From a virus: a stretch of 59,460 nt of DNA. The position numbers were made by a program, and so were the translations under genes. Under the pieces are notes generated by a model. That model was not told where the DNA came from and made no database searches. It worked only from the letters and a program-made list of their open reading frames with translations. This document shows, one piece after another, positions 9,830 through 37,596 of this stretch. The first letter of the stretch is position 1. Every line of letters begins with the position of its first letter. The stretch is taken from IMG/VR virus record IMGVR_UViG_3300033148_005420, positions 1 to 59,460 of that record, one strand, 5' to 3'.

Positions 9830-11724
9830 TAAGCAGCTCCTTGTCGAGCCCTAGGTACACCGGGTTTAGGTTGTCCGGTTGATTGAGAGCCAGTTGTATT
9901 ATTGTTATCTTGAGCTTGATACTGGGCCTGCTCAAGGGCTTCTTTTAACATCATTGCTTGTTCTTCAGGCATACCGGCCTGGATCATTATAGACAGGGCA
10001 GCATCTAGCTGGCCCTCTGCCATCCTTTCAAGTACCGCCTTAGCTTTAGGGTAGGAAAGATCTTCAAGCAATGCCTGTTGATCAATAGCTCCTTTATCAT
10101 ACAGCCCTACAGACTGCTCTTGCTTCTGTATCCTGGTTTGGATCATGGTCGAGCCAGCATGAACAAGATAATTAAACTCGGTGCCAGCAAACTCGGTGCC
10201 ACGGAAAAGAAATGTCTCACCATCGCTTTCTATCGTCTCTTCCATGTGTCCATGCATCTGGTAGAGGGCAATGGCGCTCATCCCCCTGGATTCTACCAGC
10301 TTCTCTATAGCGTCAATTTTATGTTGAATTAACACGGCGTTACTCTCTTTTAACGCGACAATAGCACTGGCAGCAATCACGCCGGAAGGGGCTTCGCCCC
10401 TGTCAGCATCCTGTACGGCGTAAATCCGGTCATGCAGGGTGATTAAGAGCTCTACCAGATTAAAGTATGAGGAGGGTAGTGAGGGTAATGGTAAAAACTT
10501 AACACTATTTACATCAGTTGTAGGGAAGAGAACAAGGCCAGGCTTACTATTAATGTGTTGGCGCTTGATGCCTGAGTTTTGCGTAACCACCATGATTCCG
10601 TAAGCTGATCTCATATGGTAGGCTATAGCCATGGAAACCAACTCCTCTATCTTGGTAGCCAATTCATAGGTCTGATCCAGGGCACTGAAGCCCCAGATTG
10701 AACTGGTATCCTCGTAAGAATTAGCCTTGAAGAACGGTAGACGGCCAAATAGAAAGTTCGTCTTGATCTTGTCGTATTCGAAGGCCCAGTTTATTTGTGG
10801 GTTCTTTCGATCAGCAAGGACTTTTCCGTTATTGCACATAGTGACGCACCTTATGCCGTCCGGGTAATCCTCGTCTTGCTCCACACGTACCCACATTTCA
10901 ACTTTTAAAGCATCGTTGCCTCTGCCAGATGAATTCAGACTACCCTGGAAGGACTCGGTGGCTGATGGTCTAGTTCCCGCTACCCCCCCTGACACAACGG
11001 ACGAATGCTCTTCTCTGTCTAATCCTAACTCATAATAGGCTTCGTCAGCGTGTATGTCATCCGTTCCAAACTCACTCTTTAGCTGATCAACCGGAATCTG
11101 AGTAGCATGGCTAATATGTGGACAATCAAGGCTTAAGTCTTCCCAGTACCCCGCAGCAGGAAAGAAGGTGAAAGGATCAATTACGGCGGTATCTGGGGCT
11201 TTTATTTTGTCATTCCAGAACGGCTTCTCAATCGTGATACCATACACCTCATTATTGATATCTGAGAGCCTAAGTTTCTTGTGCTGATTTGTTTCTTTCC
11301 ACCACTTTTCTAGCTTCCGGGTAAAAATCCTTGGCATGTCACCGCCTTGGCCAGTCAAGTCCTCTATCTCGGCCACCGGGTTACGGTTTACAATGTTCGC
11401 TACTGTCCTAATAACATTAGAGAAGAACAGGTTTGTTGATACCTTGGTCTGTTTGTCTTTAGGCTTGCTACGGCTCCAATGATTGCCCTTGAAATAACAA
11501 TATGCCTTAAACCACTGATCAGGCTTGCCTAGCCTTTCCCGTTCTGTCTTCGCTTCGAGATAGAGATTCCAGAAGAATTTACCCACGTCCTCATGGTCTT
11601 CCGGTGGGGGGTTGGATAAAGACCAGTTGCGTTGCTGAAGGGCTTTCTTCTTCTGGTTCAGCCTCTTGAGTTCTGTCTCTGGAAGATTGATTGTCTCCAG
11701 TATGTCGAGTTCTTTATCAGGCAT
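9829..11724 (-). CDS. Portal protein
   Basis: A 631-aa protein following terL. The first 100 residues include WFKAYCYFKGNHWSRSK; the core has an aspartate-proline FDPFTFFP-like segment (IDPFTFFPAAG) and, near residue 455, DADRGEAPSGVIAASAIVAL, a pattern typical of podovirus portals. The C terminus is a helical, Gln-rich barrel region. It would form the dodecameric ring through which DNA enters the capsid. Length fits podovirus portals. Confidence 0.88.
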   Translation of the reverse strand: MPDKELDILETINLPETELKRLNQKKKALQQRNWSLSNPPPEDHEDVGKFFWNLYLEAKTERERLGKPDQWFKAYCYFKGNHWSRSKPKDKQTKVSTNLFFSNVIRTVANIVNRNPVAEIEDLTGQGGDMPRIFTRKLEKWWKETNQHKKLRLSDINNEVYGITIEKPFWNDKIKAPDTAVIDPFTFFPAAGYWEDLSLDCPHISHATQIPVDQLKSEFGTDDIHADEAYYELGLDREEHSSVVSGGVAGTRPSATESFQGSLNSSGRGNDALKVEMWVRVEQDEDYPDGIRCVTMCNNGKVLADRKNPQINWAFEYDKIKTNFLFGRLPFFKANSYEDTSSIWGFSALDQTYELATKIEELVSMAIAYHMRSAYGIMVVTQNSGIKRQHINSKPGLVLFPTTDVNSVKFLPLPSLPSSYFNLVELLITLHDRIYAVQDADRGEAPSGVIAASAIVALKESNAVLIQHKIDAIEKLVESRGMSAIALYQMHGHMEETIESDGETFLFRGTEFAGTEFNYLVHAGSTMIQTRIQKQEQSVGLYDKGAIDQQALLEDLSYPKAKAVLERMAEGQLDAALSIMIQAGMPEEQAMMLKEALEQAQYQAQDNNNTTGSQSTGQPKPGVPRARQGAA

Positions 11725-14390: not shown

Positions 14391-14451
14391 TGCAAGTTTT
14401 ATCTTGCAAGTTTTAATAGGTATGGTATAACTAAGACAGATGAGAGAGAGA
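14391..14451 (+). promoter_or_regulatory. Rightward promoter module, copy 1
   Basis: A 61-bp element repeated with two mismatches at 14956-15016. It holds -35 TTGCAA (14404-14409), a 16-base spacer and an extended -10, TGGTATAAC (-10 at 14426-14431). The motif GCAAGTTTTA occurs twice, 14 bases apart, overlapping the -35 box, and looks like an operator. It drives the gene at 14523. Confidence 0.65.
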
Positions 14452-14522: not shown

Positions 14523-14960
14523 ATGCCAAAAAAAACAATATACCTAACCGACGTTCAGAAAAACACAGTCACCAATATAGTGACCAGCGGAACAGCCGAA
14601 TTGCTTCACAAACTCAACAAGGCCCAGCTTGACGGAGCTGAGCCTAAGAAGGTCTGCAAACTAGTAGATATGTTACCGGCTAAAATACAGTGGACATTTA
14701 ATACCCTCCAGGGCTTGCCTGATGGTGAACGCATGGAACTGACAGCCCTTGCCGTAGCTACCAGCCGAATACTGATAGAGCTCGTTACCTTGCCTCAACC
14801 GTATACCTTGTCCGCCTTGACCCAAGTGCAATCTAATAATACCGGACTTTTTTCCCGTGGCAGTAATACCGCTGCCAAATTGAGCGAGATATTTAAGGAT
14901 AAAAAGATGCCAAGCCTTGTGTTTACGACACAAGGTAAGAAAAAGATGGTTAGCTTGTAA
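14523..14960 (+). CDS. Unknown early protein
   Basis: A 145-aa protein with no recognised family. It is mostly helical (residues 5-110) with a basic C terminus (GKKKM). It is preceded by CGGAG six bases before ATG and is flanked on both sides by the same 61-bp promoter module, as if the gene and its promoter had been inserted or duplicated as a unit. Being first in a rightward transcript opposite terS, it is a candidate early regulator; that is inference. Confidence 0.7.
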   Translation: MPKKTIYLTDVQKNTVTNIVTSGTAELLHKLNKAQLDGAEPKKVCKLVDMLPAKIQWTFNTLQGLPDGERMELTALAVATSRILIELVTLPQPYTLSALTQVQSNNTGLFSRGSNTAAKLSEIFKDKKMPSLVFTTQGKKKMVSL

Positions 14961-15016
14961 GTTTTACCTTGCAAGTTTTAATAGGTATGGTATAACTAAG
15001 ACAGATGAGAGAGAGA
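14956..15016 (+). promoter_or_regulatory. Rightward promoter module, copy 2
   Basis: Repeats 14391-14451 with 59 of 61 identical bases: TTGCAA, 16-base spacer, TGGTATAAC, then the same leader start. It begins in the stop codon of the preceding gene and drives the gene at 15038. Only one of the two GCAAGTTTTA half-sites is intact; the other reads GTAAGTTTTA. Confidence 0.65.
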
Positions 15017-22769: not shown

Positions 22770-22845
22770 TGTTATTAACTATCGCTTGCTTGTTATTAAA
22801 CTACATGGTATAAAGCGGTATGTCAATTAAATTTAACTGGAGGGA
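22770..22845. promoter_or_regulatory. Divergent control region between RHH/initiator operon and 22851
   Basis: TGTTATTAA occurs at 22770-22778 and 22791-22799, 21 bases apart, two helical turns. Rightward: TTGCTT, 17 bases, TATAAA with TGG before it (22809-22814). Leftward: TTGACA lies in the repeated leader (22820-22825) 17 bases from TAGTTT, a weak -10. The RHH protein is the obvious candidate binder. Confidence 0.5.
22809..22845 (+). repeat. Repeated leader element, copy 1
   Basis: About 36 bases, TATAAAGCGGTATGTC continuing to an SD GGAGGG, also found at 23261-23295 and 23747-23782, with a looser relative at 25623-25655. Each copy contains ATG opening a short peptide MSI-K/N-FN. Here that frame stops after 15 codons, overlapping the real start at 22851. 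Confidence 0.75.
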
Positions 22846-23261: not shown

Positions 23262-23295
23262 ATAAAGCGGTATGTCAATTAAATTTAACGAGAGG
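23261..23295 (+). repeat. Repeated leader element, copy 2
   Basis: Same element as 22809-22845; identical over AAAGCGGTATGTCAATTAAA and the next six bases. Here its ATG is in frame with the following zinc-finger gene. Confidence 0.75.
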
Positions 23296-24202: not shown

Positions 24203-24426
24203 TCTGCTTCTCCTTTTATACCCTTCGCGGGTAGTTTGTTTTTGTATCCAGCGGCAGGACGGAAATATTCCTCAAGCTTAGATAATAAGTCTCGCGCTTC
24301 TGCTTCCTCGAGCTTGTGCGTGTTTGTTACGTCTTCAAAGGTATAACCTCCATCAGTCGACCAATCGCTTTCGCCTGTGATGGAAATGCAAAACTTATCA
24401 TCATCTATACTTGTTGCTAGCTTCAA
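24199..24426 (-). CDS. Small unknown protein
   Basis: A 75-aa acidic protein with a TTG start at 24426; GAGGTGAT five bases upstream supports it. C terminus KNKLPAKG is coded by a DNA repeat shared with the gene at 24431. Overlaps the next start by four bases. Confidence 0.55.
   Translation of the reverse strand: MKLATSIDDDKFCISITGESDWSTDGGYTFEDVTNTHKLEEAEARDLLSKLEEYFRPAAGYKNKLPAKGIKGEAE
24217..24240. repeat. Direct repeat with small hairpin, copy 1
   Basis: About 24 bases, TACCCTTCGCGGGTAGTTTG onward, repeated at 24438-24461. On the coding strand it folds as TACCC-GCGAA-GGGTA just ahead of an SD, and it encodes the end of each upstream protein (NKLPAKG). Confidence 0.65.
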
Positions 24427-24430
24427 TCTA

Positions 24431-24565
24431 TCACCTCTTTGTACCCTTCGCGGGTAGTTTGTTTTCCAGTTTCCAGGCAGCCTCAGCCCAGCCCCATGCC
24501 CAGAGCTGAGCTGGAGGGATAGCTCGCCGTTTACAGTAAGCCATTTTCCAAAACCATTTGTTCAT
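24431..24565 (-). CDS. Small tryptophan-rich protein
   Basis: A 44-aa protein with a strong SD (AAGGAG, seven bases before ATG). It contains six tryptophans (LWAWGWAEAAWK) and ends NKLPAKGTKR. Not recognised; the Trp-rich amphipathic part might touch a membrane or protein. Confidence 0.55.
   Translation of the reverse strand: MNKWFWKMAYCKRRAIPPAQLWAWGWAEAAWKLENKLPAKGTKR
24438..24461. repeat. Direct repeat with small hairpin, copy 2
   Basis: Second copy of the 24217-24240 repeat, ahead of the TTG start at 24426. Confidence 0.65.
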
Positions 24566-29401: not shown

Positions 29402-30500
29402 CTCTCACAGCCAGCCTTGCAACAATATCGCCCACAACAAAAGGCCTCTCGCTAACCAGGCTGTGGAAAGCGTCTCTGAGCTCTCCTGCCTGTTCTTTGG
29501 TGCCATCAATATCCGCAGATAGGTGGATGGTGTATTTGCCAGTTTTGGCCTCCTCTTGCCCATCTGTGGGAGCTGGCTCAGGATCAGGCGCTTCTTCCTG
29601 TCGCCGCTCCTCCGTAGCCGGTGGCGGATCGCCTTTCAGCTGACTAAGTTTTTCCGAGTAATACGCTCGGAATTCTGCCAAATCCTCTTTGTTTGGCAGC
29701 CCGTCGCTGATTTCTTGAGCATGTTTTTTCGCCCAGTTCTCCAGGTGGGCAAAGTGGCCTTTTTCGTCAACCTCAGCTTTGAGTTTGGACAGGGCTTCAG
29801 GATTCCTGATCTTGGCAGCGTTTTCCCGCCGCTCGGTTTCAAGGCGGTGCTCGGCTTCTCGGCTCTTGATTTCCGCCACCACCTCTCCGGTTGACTTCAC
29901 GATGAGAGTTTTTTTATCAGGGTAAAGGCCGCTGAATTTCGAGGCATTTACCAGGATAAGGTTTTCGTTGCACTCGGCTGCGAGATCTCCAACTTCTTTC
30001 TCGATTTTCTCCACCGCTGCGTTTACGGCGGTATTTAAGGTGTCGATAGTCCTCTTACCTTTGACCGACAGCTTTATCGGTGACAGGTCAGGGCTCAAGC
30101 AGTCGACTATATCAGGGTAAACCCCGTATAATCCCTTGACAAACTCGACAATACGCTGCTCACCAGTCTTGACCATGTCGGCCTTGACCGACTCCTTCTT
30201 TTCCTTGACCGCCTTGGTTGCGGTCAAGCGTGTTATCCTGATCGTACCAAGGAGCCCGTTGACCCCGTCAAGCAGTTGAGATACATCAGCATTACCCTTG
30301 ATTGCTGCGTCAAGGATTGCCTTAATCTCTTTTTCCGAGGCGGTACAGTCTTTGATAAACTGCTCTGCGGTGGCGAACTCCTGATCTGTTTCAGGGGTAA
30401 GCACCGCCCCATCGATCTTGGCCAGCCACTCTTTATTAATCTCGGTAAAGTTACTTTTCTGAACCCCGCCACTGATGGCGATAATTAACTCTTTCATCAA
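29391..30500 (-). CDS. Coiled-coil protein of the recombination operon
   Basis: A 369-aa charged protein, largely helical, overlapping recT by four bases. The first half contains two helical arrays (residues 40-120), and residues 200-300 are a long coiled coil (SKLKAEVDEKGHFAHLENW). It resembles proteins of unknown role that accompany RecT in phage operons, but I cannot name the family. Confidence 0.65.
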   Translation of the reverse strand: MMKELIIAISGGVQKSNFTEINKEWLAKIDGAVLTPETDQEFATAEQFIKDCTASEKEIKAILDAAIKGNADVSQLLDGVNGLLGTIRITRLTATKAVKEKKESVKADMVKTGEQRIVEFVKGLYGVYPDIVDCLSPDLSPIKLSVKGKRTIDTLNTAVNAAVEKIEKEVGDLAAECNENLILVNASKFSGLYPDKKTLIVKSTGEVVAEIKSREAEHRLETERRENAAKIRNPEALSKLKAEVDEKGHFAHLENWAKKHAQEISDGLPNKEDLAEFRAYYSEKLSQLKGDPPPATEERRQEEAPDPEPAPTDGQEEAKTGKYTIHLSADIDGTKEQAGELRDAFHSLVSERPFVVGDIVARLAVRDGS

Positions 30501-31297
30501 AAACCCTCCGATTTAAGACCAGCTTTTTCGCTGGTTTCTTTTTGACGTGCCGGGCAGCCTTTTCTTGATTGGCATTCGGTGCAAAAGGAAACAGATACTG
30601 ACTCGTTTGTTCCTGGGCAAACCACCCTCTCACCTGGCGCTTCCCCTTGTTTAGCTTGCGGCTTGTCGGGTTCAGGCTCGCCAAGAGCATCATCAAGGCT
30701 CGTTCTCGGCTTGTCAGTCTCTTCCAGCTCATCAGGAGTGTAAACCCCGGCGATAACATCCGGGCAGTATAATCTTGCCCATTTTTTAACGGCAAGGTAT
30801 GCGAGCTGTTGGGCCGGGTCAGATTTCCAAAGTGAGCTGTTCTGTACGGTCTGCTTGGAGATGTGACTCCAAGTCCCCCAGGTTATTTCAGACTCGCCTC
30901 TTACGATGGCCCCTGTCCTGCATTTCAAAGAGTTCCCCTCGCCTCCCCATTCATAGGTAAATCTTCCCCTGATCAGCCTCGAACTGAGGATGACGGCATG
31001 TACTAGCTGGGCCTCGTACCCAAGGGTTCCCTTAACTAAGTGGGTCTTTTGCGCAACCGTAAAGGGGGACATTCCCCATGCGGCAGCCTGGAGAGCTATG
31101 GCAAAGCAATCGCCCTTTGACCCGACAAGGTGAGCCGGTACTGTAACTTTTGCTTGGCACATTATGGCGGCTACTCTTTCGACTTGACTAATCACGTCCC
31201 CGTCCATCAAGTTGAGGACGGGGGGCCGATAATCATCGACCATTACAGGCGCAGGTACTGGGGCTTCGGTTTTTACTTCTGGTAGGTTTTCACTCAT
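30497..31297 (-). CDS. recT: RecT single-strand annealing protein
   Basis: A 266-aa recombinase. Residues about 70-200 carry RecT features: ALQAAAWGMSPFTVAQKTHL, GTLGYEAQLVHAVILSS, AYLAVKKWARLYCPDVIAG. It anneals ssDNA at homologous sites together with the exonuclease encoded next. The C terminus has an added cysteine group (VCPGTNES, CTECQSRKGCP, residues about 220-247), likely a zinc finger, that core RecT lacks. Confidence 0.88.
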   Translation of the reverse strand: MSENLPEVKTEAPVPAPVMVDDYRPPVLNLMDGDVISQVERVAAIMCQAKVTVPAHLVGSKGDCFAIALQAAAWGMSPFTVAQKTHLVKGTLGYEAQLVHAVILSSRLIRGRFTYEWGGEGNSLKCRTGAIVRGESEITWGTWSHISKQTVQNSSLWKSDPAQQLAYLAVKKWARLYCPDVIAGVYTPDELEETDKPRTSLDDALGEPEPDKPQAKQGEAPGERVVCPGTNESVSVSFCTECQSRKGCPARQKETSEKAGLKSEGF

Positions 31298-32052
31298 CGT
31301 ATTTCCTTCAATAATGCTTCAGTTTTAATTCTGGCCAACTGGATCAGCTCGGCCTCTTCGGTTTCTAGGCGAGCGGCCCTGGCCTTATGTTCTTCAACGA
31401 TCTGTTTCGCCATTGGCAGGCGGTCGGCAAGGTCGTTGTTCCACCGATTCATGTCTGTTTCGTATTTCACCCTCTCAATTGCGGTTGGGGCTGGCACTTT
31501 TAAGAGCATCTGGCCGTGTTCTGGGTGCCAGCTGAGAAAAAAGCTGTAAATGGTGTTGCAGATTATCTGCTGCTCGTCCACTTGTTTTTTGTATGTGGTC
31601 GGCAACTTCCAATCTTTTAAGTATTTCAAATGAGTTTTTCTCTCTGGGCATTTGATCTCCAGAGATACCAGGAGGCCTTTGAAGATGATTAGCCGGTCAA
31701 GGCTGGCGTGGAATCCTGGATACTCTCGGTTCCTGATCAGGCCGACTTCTATCGTTTCTAGGCCTGTGGCCCGCTCGAACCATGCAACGGCCTCCTTTTC
31801 CAGGCGGATACCCCTTGACATTGATGCGCTGGAAAAGGTTTCAACAGGTTCGCCGGTGTGTCGCTCTATAATCTTTCGATCCATCAGGGCGATTCTGGTC
31901 TTACCTGATCCACCGGCAAAGGCCGCTGATGCTTCACTGCTGCCGACAGTGTGCCGCTCTTTTAACCATTCCGGCGTTCCCTGGTCGCAGTCGTAAAAAC
32001 GTAGACCGGGAAATCTTTTGTAGGTTTTTGGGGTCACCGGCACAATGACCAC
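31294..32052 (-). CDS. YqaJ/lambda-type exonuclease
   Basis: A 252-aa nuclease. Motifs: QGTPEWLKERHTVGSSEAS at the start, RGIRLEKEAVAWFE (E ligand), GFHASLDRLI (D ligand), SLEIKCPE (ExK) and QVDEQQ near residue 160. Together they form the PD-(D/E)XK site of the YqaJ family. It would resect dsDNA 5' ends to feed RecT. GTG 32052 is the first possible start; GTG 32043 is an alternative. Confidence 0.88.
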   Translation of the reverse strand: MVIVPVTPKTYKRFPGLRFYDCDQGTPEWLKERHTVGSSEASAAFAGGSGKTRIALMDRKIIERHTGEPVETFSSASMSRGIRLEKEAVAWFERATGLETIEVGLIRNREYPGFHASLDRLIIFKGLLVSLEIKCPERKTHLKYLKDWKLPTTYKKQVDEQQIICNTIYSFFLSWHPEHGQMLLKVPAPTAIERVKYETDMNRWNNDLADRLPMAKQIVEEHKARAARLETEEAELIQLARIKTEALLKEIR

Positions 32053-34032: not shown

Positions 34033-34073
34033 TCAGGCATACCGGTCGAGATGGAAACCAACTAGAGGAAAAT

Positions 34074-34307
34074 ATGAGCGAGAACCACACTGATTTTTTA
34101 ACTACAGAGATTAATAACCAGGCAGCACAGGAGCGACAAGAGTTCAACTTGTTTGCGATGCTGAAACCGTCAATCCAGAGGGATGGCAATCAGTGGTGCG
34201 TCCTGTATGGCAAGGACTTGCAGGAGGGGATCGCCGGTTTTGGCGATTCCCCGCACCATGCGGTACTAGATTTTAACCACCAGTGGTATCAAAGCGTCAA
34301 GTCTTAA
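34074..34307 (+). CDS. Unknown early protein
   Basis: A 77-aa protein. I start at ATG 34074 with AGAGGAAA upstream. Its end (VLYGKDLQEGIAGFG, FNHQWY) has no recognised motif. Confidence 0.6.
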   Translation: MSENHTDFLTTEINNQAAQERQEFNLFAMLKPSIQRDGNQWCVLYGKDLQEGIAGFGDSPHHAVLDFNHQWYQSVKS

Positions 34308-34365: not shown

Positions 34366-34653
34366 ATGGAGAAAAAAACAATGAAGCAGGCCGCACTAGA
34401 TAGCGGCATCAATTACGACACGTTTAAGAAGTATAAGCGACGAGGTTGCAGTGCTACAAAGTCTTACGAGATTGCCCACATGCTTGCAATGTGGGACATC
34501 CGTAAAAATAACGCAGAACCTCGGGTCGCATTGATAGACCCGGTAATTATACTTAGCCCAATAGGGTTCTGGCGGGAGGTCGTAAGGATCTGCCCAGAAA
34601 TAAACACCAAGGGGCGAGGGAGGCCCAAGAAAGATGATAAGAAAAATGATTGA
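34366..34653 (+). CDS. DNA-binding protein with AT-hook-like tail
   Basis: A 95-aa protein with an N-terminal helix-turn-helix-like stretch (MKQAALDSGINYDTFKKY) and a C-terminal GRGRPKKDDKKND, which contains the GRP core of an AT hook for the DNA minor groove. AAGGAGAG precedes ATG. Its last 20 bases overlap the next gene in another frame within a 71-bp repeat. Confidence 0.65.
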   Translation: MEKKTMKQAALDSGINYDTFKKYKRRGCSATKSYEIAHMLAMWDIRKNNAEPRVALIDPVIILSPIGFWREVVRICPEINTKGRGRPKKDDKKND

Positions 34654-34671
34654 GAAATGGAAGAGGAATAG
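34601..34671 (+). repeat. 71-bp direct repeat across a gene junction, copy 1
   Basis: Exactly repeated at 34818-34888, 217 bases away. It encodes the AT-hook tail and stop of one gene and the first 13 codons of the next, which overlap. Because 217 is not a multiple of three, successive genes fall in successive frames. Confidence 0.9.
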
Positions 34672-34870
34672 GGAGAAGTGGAAGAGGAATAGGGAAAAAC
34701 TTGAAGCATGGGACACGTTGCTCAATGGAGCACAGAGTAATCGGGCTCCAGCAAGAACAAGGGAACTGAGCACTATGGCAGGATTCCAGGCTGCTGTGCT
34801 TAAGATAGATCCAACGGTAAACACCAAGGGGCGAGGGAGGCCCAAGAAAGATGATAAGAAAAATGATTGA
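34634..34870 (+). CDS. Short basic protein with AT-hook-like tail
   Basis: A 78-aa protein starting MIRKMIEKWKRNR, then a second EKWKRNR from a 21-base tandem duplication, and ending in the same GRGRPKKDDKKND as the gene before it. It is bounded on both sides by copies of the 71-bp repeat. It may be an expanded linker product rather than an independently evolved gene. Confidence 0.5.
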   Translation: MIRKMIEKWKRNREKWKRNREKLEAWDTLLNGAQSNRAPARTRELSTMAGFQAAVLKIDPTVNTKGRGRPKKDDKKND

Positions 34871-34888
34871 GAAATGGAAGAGGAATAG
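34818..34888 (+). repeat. 71-bp direct repeat across a gene junction, copy 2
   Basis: Identical to 34601-34671. Confidence 0.9.
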
Positions 34889-35561
34889 AGGGGAGAGAGC
34901 GGTTGCCAAGGCCATTGCGGTGCTGGCAACTGCTCCCAGGGCGGCGGTGTCCATCCCCACTAAACAGGCGTTTTTTGACAATAACGATGCGGTAAGGGTC
35001 GTTATTCAGGATTCGCTGAGTATCCTTGTTCACCGGGGGGACATAGAGGTGGTCACTAACTCTGGTACGGTGTCGTTCTGGGGGAGCGATTCACACCGTC
35101 CGTATTTGCAAGCAGGCGGTGAATTTGCATCTGCGCCGCTATTTACCACAGATGAGGTCGTGCGTAACATATGCGCAAATATCAACATCCAGGCTAAAGA
35201 CCCAGGCGGCGAGGTGTTTTGTATCACTATGTATAACCATGTTTTTCATGACGACTTGTCATGGGGTGATGCAAGGAGGGCCGCCGAGAGCATGACGGCT
35301 GTGATCCGTGATGCGGCCAGTGTGATGCATCACGGAGAAAAAGAGAGAGGTGATAAGGCTACAGGTCGTCTTTATTCATCCCTCTTTCTTGCTGGCGAGG
35401 AAGAGTATAAAAACACGCGCAAGGCCAATACGGCCTTGGCGATTTCCGAGGCTGTCTATACATTGAGAGTGGTTAGCACAGCTCACGAGGTTAGGGAGTT
35501 TTTAATTATGTTGTCTCAGGAACAGCATTTGCCGGTTGATGACCTGGAAGAGGAATGGTGA
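34851..35561 (+). CDS. Unknown protein with shared basic N terminus
   Basis: A 236-aa protein that begins with the same MIRKMIEKWKRNR as the gene before it. The rest is mixed alpha-beta with a helical end (AVYTLRVVSTAHEVREFLIML). No family recognised. The basic start is coded by the 71-bp repeat. Confidence 0.6.
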   Translation: MIRKMIEKWKRNRGERAVAKAIAVLATAPRAAVSIPTKQAFFDNNDAVRVVIQDSLSILVHRGDIEVVTNSGTVSFWGSDSHRPYLQAGGEFASAPLFTTDEVVRNICANINIQAKDPGGEVFCITMYNHVFHDDLSWGDARRAAESMTAVIRDAASVMHHGEKERGDKATGRLYSSLFLAGEEEYKNTRKANTALAISEAVYTLRVVSTAHEVREFLIMLSQEQHLPVDDLEEEW

Positions 35562-36627: not shown

Positions 36628-36912
36628 ATGGCATTAACAAAAGCAAATCTAGCTCAGGCTATCTACAAGAATCACCCCCACTTGACTAGATCCCAGGCTG
36701 CTGTAGCCGTGGAAGTTTTCCTGACCACGGCAAAAGAGGCCCTGATCGGCGGCGAAGACCTCCTTTTAAGTGGTTTTGGCAAGTTTAGCGTGAAGGATAA
36801 GAAACTCCGAAAGGGGCGCAATCCTCAAACCGGGGAAGATCTGATTCTAGACGCTCGGAGGGTGGTTACTTTTAAGCCTTCGGGGATTTTGCGGGGGCGG
36901 ATTAATGCGTGA
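36628..36912 (+). CDS. HU/IHF-family DNA-bending protein 1
   Basis: A 94-aa protein of normal HU/IHF length: helix-turn-helix dimer core (residues 1-45), GFGKFSVKDKK in the beta sheet and the arm region GRNPQTGEDLILDARRVVTF with the DNA-intercalating proline in NPQTG. It bends and compacts DNA. GGAGGAC lies before ATG. Confidence 0.93.
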   Translation: MALTKANLAQAIYKNHPHLTRSQAAVAVEVFLTTAKEALIGGEDLLLSGFGKFSVKDKKLRKGRNPQTGEDLILDARRVVTFKPSGILRGRINA

Positions 36913-37309
36913 GGAGACGGCAGTCCTGATCTCATTATTGGTCTGTGTAGCTGTCCTGGCTGGCTATCTTAGCTTGTCGGGGAAATTATCAACCTGGATA
37001 GGAATAGAAATGTCTGTAGAAAGCTACGATTGTGACAAGTGCGGCGAAAACGGGGTGTATAGCGAGCATATCGCATCCTGCGAGAGATGTGGAAACAAGG
37101 TGCGCTCTAACTGTACAACCGTGAGGCCGGATGATCATCCTTTTATTCACCAGCTGGTGGATGACGGAGAGCAGCTAGAGAGCAAGTACTGCCCTTTTTG
37201 CAGTGGTGATTCAGTATCGGATTCCCAGCGGGTTGAGTTTCTGCTTGAGAAGTTTGAGGTTGATCCTGCCGACATGGATCGTGAAATTATAGCCAAGAGG
37301 AAAAAGTGA
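36905..37309 (+). CDS. Membrane-anchored zinc-ribbon protein
   Basis: A 134-aa protein with one N-terminal membrane segment (VLISLLVCVAVLAGYLSLSG) and then cysteine pairs CDKCGEN, CERCGNK and YCPFCSG, two zinc sites. It overlaps both flanking HU genes. The combination suggests a link between DNA or a protein partner and the membrane; no family recognised. Confidence 0.65.
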   Translation: MREETAVLISLLVCVAVLAGYLSLSGKLSTWIGIEMSVESYDCDKCGENGVYSEHIASCERCGNKVRSNCTTVRPDDHPFIHQLVDDGEQLESKYCPFCSGDSVSDSQRVEFLLEKFEVDPADMDREIIAKRKK

Positions 37310-37596
37310 ATAAATCAGAATTAATCCAAGAAATGGCCAAGCAAACTGGCCGCTTGGAGAAGGAAACAGCCGCTGTGGTAAATACGATCCTGGATACCAT
37401 GGCTCAGTCCCTGGCAGAAGGTAACGGCATTGAAATCCGTGGTTTCGGAAGCTTCTCTGTTAAAGAGTATGATGCTTATACTGGCCGAAATCCTAAGACT
37501 GGAGGGAAAGTCGAGGTTGGGGCTAAGAAACTCCCTGTTTTTAAGGTGGGGAAGGGGTTAATGGAAGCGGTTGATGCTGGGAGGAGATCAAAGTAA
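37306..37596 (+). CDS. HU/IHF-family DNA-bending protein 2
   Basis: A 96-aa HU/IHF protein (GFGSFSVKEYDAYTGRNPKT, VFKVGKGLMEAV) starting with GTG 37306, four bases inside the previous gene. It differs clearly from the first copy, so the two could form a heterodimer as IHF does, or serve different roles. Confidence 0.93.
   Translation: MNKSELIQEMAKQTGRLEKETAAVVNTILDTMAQSLAEGNGIEIRGFGSFSVKEYDAYTGRNPKTGGKVEVGAKKLPVFKVGKGLMEAVDAGRRSK

Follow-up and report, generated by a model that had tools for sequence, protein, structure and literature searches.

How did a small gene come to lie between two copies of one and the same gene junction? The question is raised by a locus in virus record IMGVR_UViG_3300033148_005420 (59,460 nucleotides, referred to here as the window), in which three overlapping genes on the + strand, A (34366–34653), B (34634–34870), and C (34851–35561), are joined through an exact direct repeat. 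The original prediction was that this repeat carries a gene junction, that the three genes lie in successive frames with common tails and heads, and that the middle gene, B, is new and arose from the junction by recent duplication. The first two of these claims are borne out by our analyses. The third is borne out only in part, as B outside the repeat looks like an old relative of A.

The Repeat and the Genes It Joins

The repeat is 71 bp long, exact, and direct (34601–34671 and 34818–34888, offset 217), and among the exact repeats of the window only the 114 bp shared by the contig ends are longer. A chance origin was ruled out because the longest direct repeats in dinucleotide-Markov sequences of the window's length were only 14–17 bases (n = 30). 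The first copy, R1 (34601–34671, + strand), holds the tail of A, its stop, a Shine-Dalgarno (SD)-like GGGAGG, and the start of B, while the second copy, R2 (34818–34888, + strand), holds the tail of B, its stop, the same GGGAGG, and the start of C. In both copies the GGGAGG (34618–34623 in R1, 34835–34840 in R2) is situated 10 bases ahead of the next ATG and within the codons for KGRGRP, and the codons of the AT-hook-like tail may therefore double as a ribosome-binding site. The start offsets from A to B and from B to C are both 1 modulo 3, so that each gene lies one frame on from the gene before it. As a result of the repeat, A and B have a 16-aa tail in common (NTKGRGRPKKDDKKND) and B and C a 13-aa head (MIRKMIEKWKRNR).

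Gene A encodes 95 aa, with a helical N-terminal half and a C-terminal KGRGRPKK tail, and gene C encodes 236 aa with no assigned function. Searches of A, B, and C against Pfam, PHROGs, and NCBIfam returned no usable family match. The tail had been called AT-hook-like, and this description stands for the motif, which is evident by eye, but not at the level of the Pfam family, as the AT_hook scores of A and B (PF02178; 13.3 and 15.6 bits, respectively) are below the curated cut-off of 17.4 bits. The AlphaFold2 model of A is weak (mean pLDDT 65), with helices at residues 6–13, 17–25, and 30–49, and its N-terminal half is a possible helix-turn-helix (HTH), an assignment made by eye without a family match. 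Foldseek with this model identified no fold (the best PDB match had an E-value of 4.0), and a profile search of the PDB sequences with A gave no match. A 29-residue segment of the portal protein (11110–11196, - strand) resembles A residues 52–80 with 34% identity (tblastn E-value of 4e-4 in a small database; score of 54 over the 29 residues), a likeness that is probably due to chance.

A Relative With a Single Junction

Scans of 2.9 million viral contigs with A, C, or B each identified a single contig, IMGVR_UViG_3300033151_000729 in IMG/VR, which is the only relative found. Its A homolog is 92% identical to that of the window and its C homolog is 68% identical over residues 1–226. In this relative A overlaps C directly through one copy of the junction and there is no B; with B as the query, only the tail of A and the head of C were matched in its record. 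From the start of A to the start of C there are 485 bases in the window but 268 in the relative, exactly 217 fewer. A comparison of one versus two junctions in related phages, as had been proposed for this locus, thus gave one copy without B in the relative and two in the window.

The junction of the relative differs from R1 and from R2 at the same 10 of 71 positions, while R1 and R2 are identical to each other. Had the two junctions been apart since before the window and the relative split, about 10 differences between them would be expected; there are none, which indicates that the repeat was duplicated or homogenized after the split. The recent duplication that had been proposed is therefore upheld to the extent that the repeat itself is either recent or recently homogenized.

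The Composition of Gene B

Gene B encodes 78 aa and can be divided into parts with different resemblances. Its head consists of the head of C followed by a tandem copy: Tandem Repeats Finder identified a 21-bp repeat of 2.3 copies (34652–34699, + strand), of which the first lies within R1, the second is nearly exact and the third is partial, ending at 34699. Codons 1–13 are thus the head of C and codons 14–20 a tandem copy of its EKWKRNR. The body (34700–34817, + strand) appears to be a diverged homolog of A codons 40–78 (34483–34600, at the same offset of 217), so that codons 23–61 of B would correspond to old, diverged A residues 40–78, and the last 16–17 codons are the tail of A. These parts lie where a tandem duplication running from mid-A to the head of C would place them, with the 217 offset kept throughout.

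The resemblance of the body to A was found by an ungapped alignment anchored in the register set by the repeat, in which just 11 of 39 residues are identical to A residues 40–78, with a BLOSUM62 score of 33. This score was reached by none of 100,000 shuffles of the interior of B, and registers slid by 1–10 positions in either direction (-10 to +10) scored at most 4. Against the A of the relative, the body of B scored 37. When the score of 33 against A was sought throughout the open stretches of the window, it was reached at one of 28,348 positions, which was the portal segment described above. Tests without the anchor were weaker, with a gapped local alignment of B and A equaled by 90 of 20,000 shuffles, and in a codon-shuffle test at the DNA level 144 of 20,000 were as good. 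An A profile matches B at profile positions 40–95 with 38 bits, a score that includes the tail encoded by the repeat. Similarity to A outside the repeat is, then, present in B by the anchored test and weaker in the unanchored gapped test. The homology is short and weak, and since the portal segment outscores the body of B in the comparison with A (54 to 33), a chance similarity in the C-terminal half of A is possible. Based on the anchored register, however, the body of B looks like an old, diverged homolog of the C-terminal half of A.

At the DNA level the body of B and A are identical at 44 of 118 positions, which is close to saturation, while the A bodies of the window and the relative differ at only 14 of 235 positions. 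On this comparison of sequences, the body of B is far older than the split of the two phages. These values led us to reject B as a plain recent duplicate, because such a copy would leave all 217 bp alike, whereas the junctions are alike at 71 of 71 positions and the bodies at 44 of 118. They also bear on the proposal that a simple recent duplication of the junction, with unrelated filler between the copies, gave rise to a gene from non-genic or out-of-frame sequence. That proposal is consistent with the single junction in the relative and with the lack of any family match for B other than weak or sub-cut-off ones, and about 50 unique open codons would not by themselves be improbable. We consider it unlikely, though, since the body of B is similar to A in register and the divergence is confined to the part between the junctions. 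The claim that B is a new gene made from the junction is accordingly not supported, and a diverged, in-register A homolog is the more probable source of its body. An ancient middle gene, diverged outside the repeat, had been named as the contrary expectation; the divergence was found, although no relative carrying B was found among the viral contigs by which its age could be read directly.

Origin of the 217-bp Segment

We best read B as a chimera formed by recombination from the head of C, an A-like body of old origin, and a tail that it has come to share with A recently. The 217 bp that are missing from the relative have a direct copy of the A/C junction at either end and would encode this chimera, and as an explanation of the locus as a whole we regard this as probable, if by no wide measure. 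The divergence of the body is far too great for a recent copy of the resident A, which leads to two possible histories. In one, the duplication would be old and the 71-bp junctions recently homogenized by gene conversion; in the other, recombination at the shared junction would have brought in an A-like body from a phage whose A allele had diverged. Both rest on recombination at short homologies. Whether B was gained in the window's lineage or lost in that of the relative is undecided, as one relative cannot separate the two.

An old tandem duplication within the lineage, in which the bodies diverged, the junctions were gene-converted, and the relative lost B, accounts for the finding that the whole unit keeps one 217-bp offset, the diverged body included. 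The loss would be a one-step deletion of 217 bp between the two junctions, which is mechanistically simple between 71-bp direct repeats. Homogenization is also consistent with another pair of repeats in these phages (at 14403 and 14968 in the window), which is identical within each phage but differs between them. However, this history requires four steps (duplication, long divergence, conversion, and loss in the relative), and the searches identified no relative in which B lies between unequal junctions. We view it as a serious possibility that falls short of an even chance.

Recent import, by which the C-terminal half of a diverged A allele recombined in between two resident copies of the junction, would explain directly why B is missing from the relative and why R1 and R2 are identical. 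It is also in keeping with the mosaic nature of the locus. In the relative, an unrelated gene takes the place of the one just upstream of A (34053–34301) while both flanks are conserved, and 25,654 of the 59,460 bases of the window align to the relative (mean of 90%; 60,000 of its 60,589 bases were used). Based on these alignments the neighborhood is highly mosaic. Against import, the left joint of the segment lies in the 21-bp repeat, where no homology to A can be seen, and neither a donor nor another phage carrying the insert was found in the viral contigs, phage records, or genome contigs. Specifically, tblastn of A, B, C, and the next gene, D, against 50,697 phage records gave no match, nor did blastn of the locus; scans of genome contigs with an A alignment and with the D protein identified none, and scans of viral contigs with a D alignment and two DNA patterns identified only the relative or nothing. 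A terminase scan of the viral contigs identified 13 further contigs, and among the 14 records A and C each matched only the known relative (1 of 14 each), but the absence of A and C from the others means little because most are fragments of 5–48 kb. With the precedents described below also in its favor, import is conceivable to a degree that we would place under one half.

The window encodes proteins by which such exchanges could occur, a RecT annealing protein (PF03837, 90.9 bits) and a YqaJ exonuclease (PF09588, 55.2 bits), and we infer that recombination over 71 bp would be easy for this phage. For the two genes (30497–32052), tblastn at 1e-3 against 60,000 of the 60,589 bases of the relative gave no match, and judging by this search the recombination module has been swapped or is very diverged. 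Further along the window, two genes for HU-type DNA-binding proteins are close together (36628–36912 and 37306–37596) and both are kept in the relative.

As the source is a metagenome-derived virus record, the arrangement could in principle be an assembly artefact, either a chimera joined at the 71-bp repeat or a longer array that had collapsed. We expect this to be very unlikely, since the joins from repeat to B and from B to repeat each span unique sequence, and DNA with B beside the repeat on both sides must therefore exist. In addition, 71 bp is presumably less than the common read length, and the 114-bp overlap of the contig ends is what a clean circular assembly would show.

Comparison to Known Systems

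Phage inserts bounded by repeats are of a known type, and genes 67 and 68 of mycobacteriophage Island3 are by analogy a close precedent. In Island3, a sequence of about 60 bp gives gene 68 (85 aa) the same C-terminal 18 residues as gene 67; Brujita, a close relative, holds this sequence once and lacks the extra gene, with deletion versus acquisition left open by the authors (PMC3029335). As at the window locus, there is a small extra gene whose tail is shared with the upstream gene and a relative with one copy, and a donor or second phage with the insert is likewise unreported (PMC3029335). The shared Island3 sequence differs in that it is situated at the 3′ ends of genes without a following start, whereas the window repeat carries the start of the next gene and is longer as an exact match (71 bp versus about 60 bp). 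We also compared the bodies of Island3 gp67 and gp68 and found no similarity (2,076 of 3,000 shuffles were as good), by which a hidden paralogy in gene 68 was rejected. Since B resembles A in its body and the two Island3 proteins do not resemble each other in theirs, hidden paralogy of the body is a feature of the window and not of Island3.

A second case is mycobacteriophage LRRHood, in which genes 43–46 lie between 29-bp direct repeats of a sequence that Cali holds once (PMC3029335). The likeness is that added genes lie between direct copies of a sequence found once in relatives, an arrangement that the window locus shows with B and its single-junction relative. In LRRHood, however, the insert is 1.35 kb with four genes, and the repeats are not a tail/start junction that makes three overlapping genes. 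More generally, PMC3945230 relates short conserved boundary sequences and relaxed RecT/Rad52-like recombination to phage mosaicism. That case and the window have in common a phage with a RecT-type annealing protein and the exchange of gene-sized pieces where homology is short; in the window, though, the boundary is duplicated in one genome and codes for two overlapping genes. Our literature search identified no closer case than Island3 and LRRHood, which is not a claim that none has been published.

The instructive part of the locus is its probably chimeric middle gene with an A-like body. If read correctly, it is a compact example of a small orphan gene of a phage arising from existing coding parts between repeated start/stop junctions, and not from scratch. 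It also suggests that "orphan" genes can hide an old paralog that is recognized as a homolog only if a repeat common to both genes is used to anchor the alignment.

Predicted Expression and Function of B

The junction would act as a self-contained translation module with an A-type tail, a stop, an SD, and the start of the next gene. Because it carries these elements, an insert with an open frame and a unit length of 1 modulo 3 would be read as a complete gene whose head and tail the junction already supplies. A wider reading is that the 71-bp junction is a gene-making capsule, whose repeats, held identical through conversion by RecT, dock accessory genes that are gained, lost, or exchanged; we offer this as speculation that is quite improbable on present evidence. 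If true, any in-frame insert between the copies would at once be a translated gene with a DNA-binding-like tail.

If B is made, its translation is expected from the overlap and the SD to be coupled to that of A. The protein would be a short relative of A that keeps the basic AT-hook-like tail and lacks the helical N-terminal half, and perhaps it modulates A, a role that we suggest very tentatively. Modeled as a single sequence, B gave a poor structure (mean pLDDT 68) that is helical at residues 2–35 and 40–55 and has low confidence in the tail.

Other Repeats in the Window

The repeat pair mentioned above is a 49-bp exact repeat (14403–14451 and 14968–15016) with a promoter-like TTGCAA/TATAAC that flanks a gene for a 145-aa protein (14523–14960). 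Around its 49%-identical gene, the relative has another promoter-like pair, of 38 bp (at 960 and 1706). The pattern looks like a joint change of one regulator and two operators. A 28-bp repeat is situated at two gene starts (22810–22837 and 23262–23289); the version in the relative is 22 bp with a spacing of 1555 bases and different content between the copies. The identity of the contig ends (1–114 and 59347–59460, 114 bp) fits a circular assembly or a genome with terminal redundancy. A 24-bp repeat with a short hairpin (TACCC...GGGTA) is present at 24219–24242 and 24442–24465, and it is conserved in the relative with the same spacing of 223 bases.
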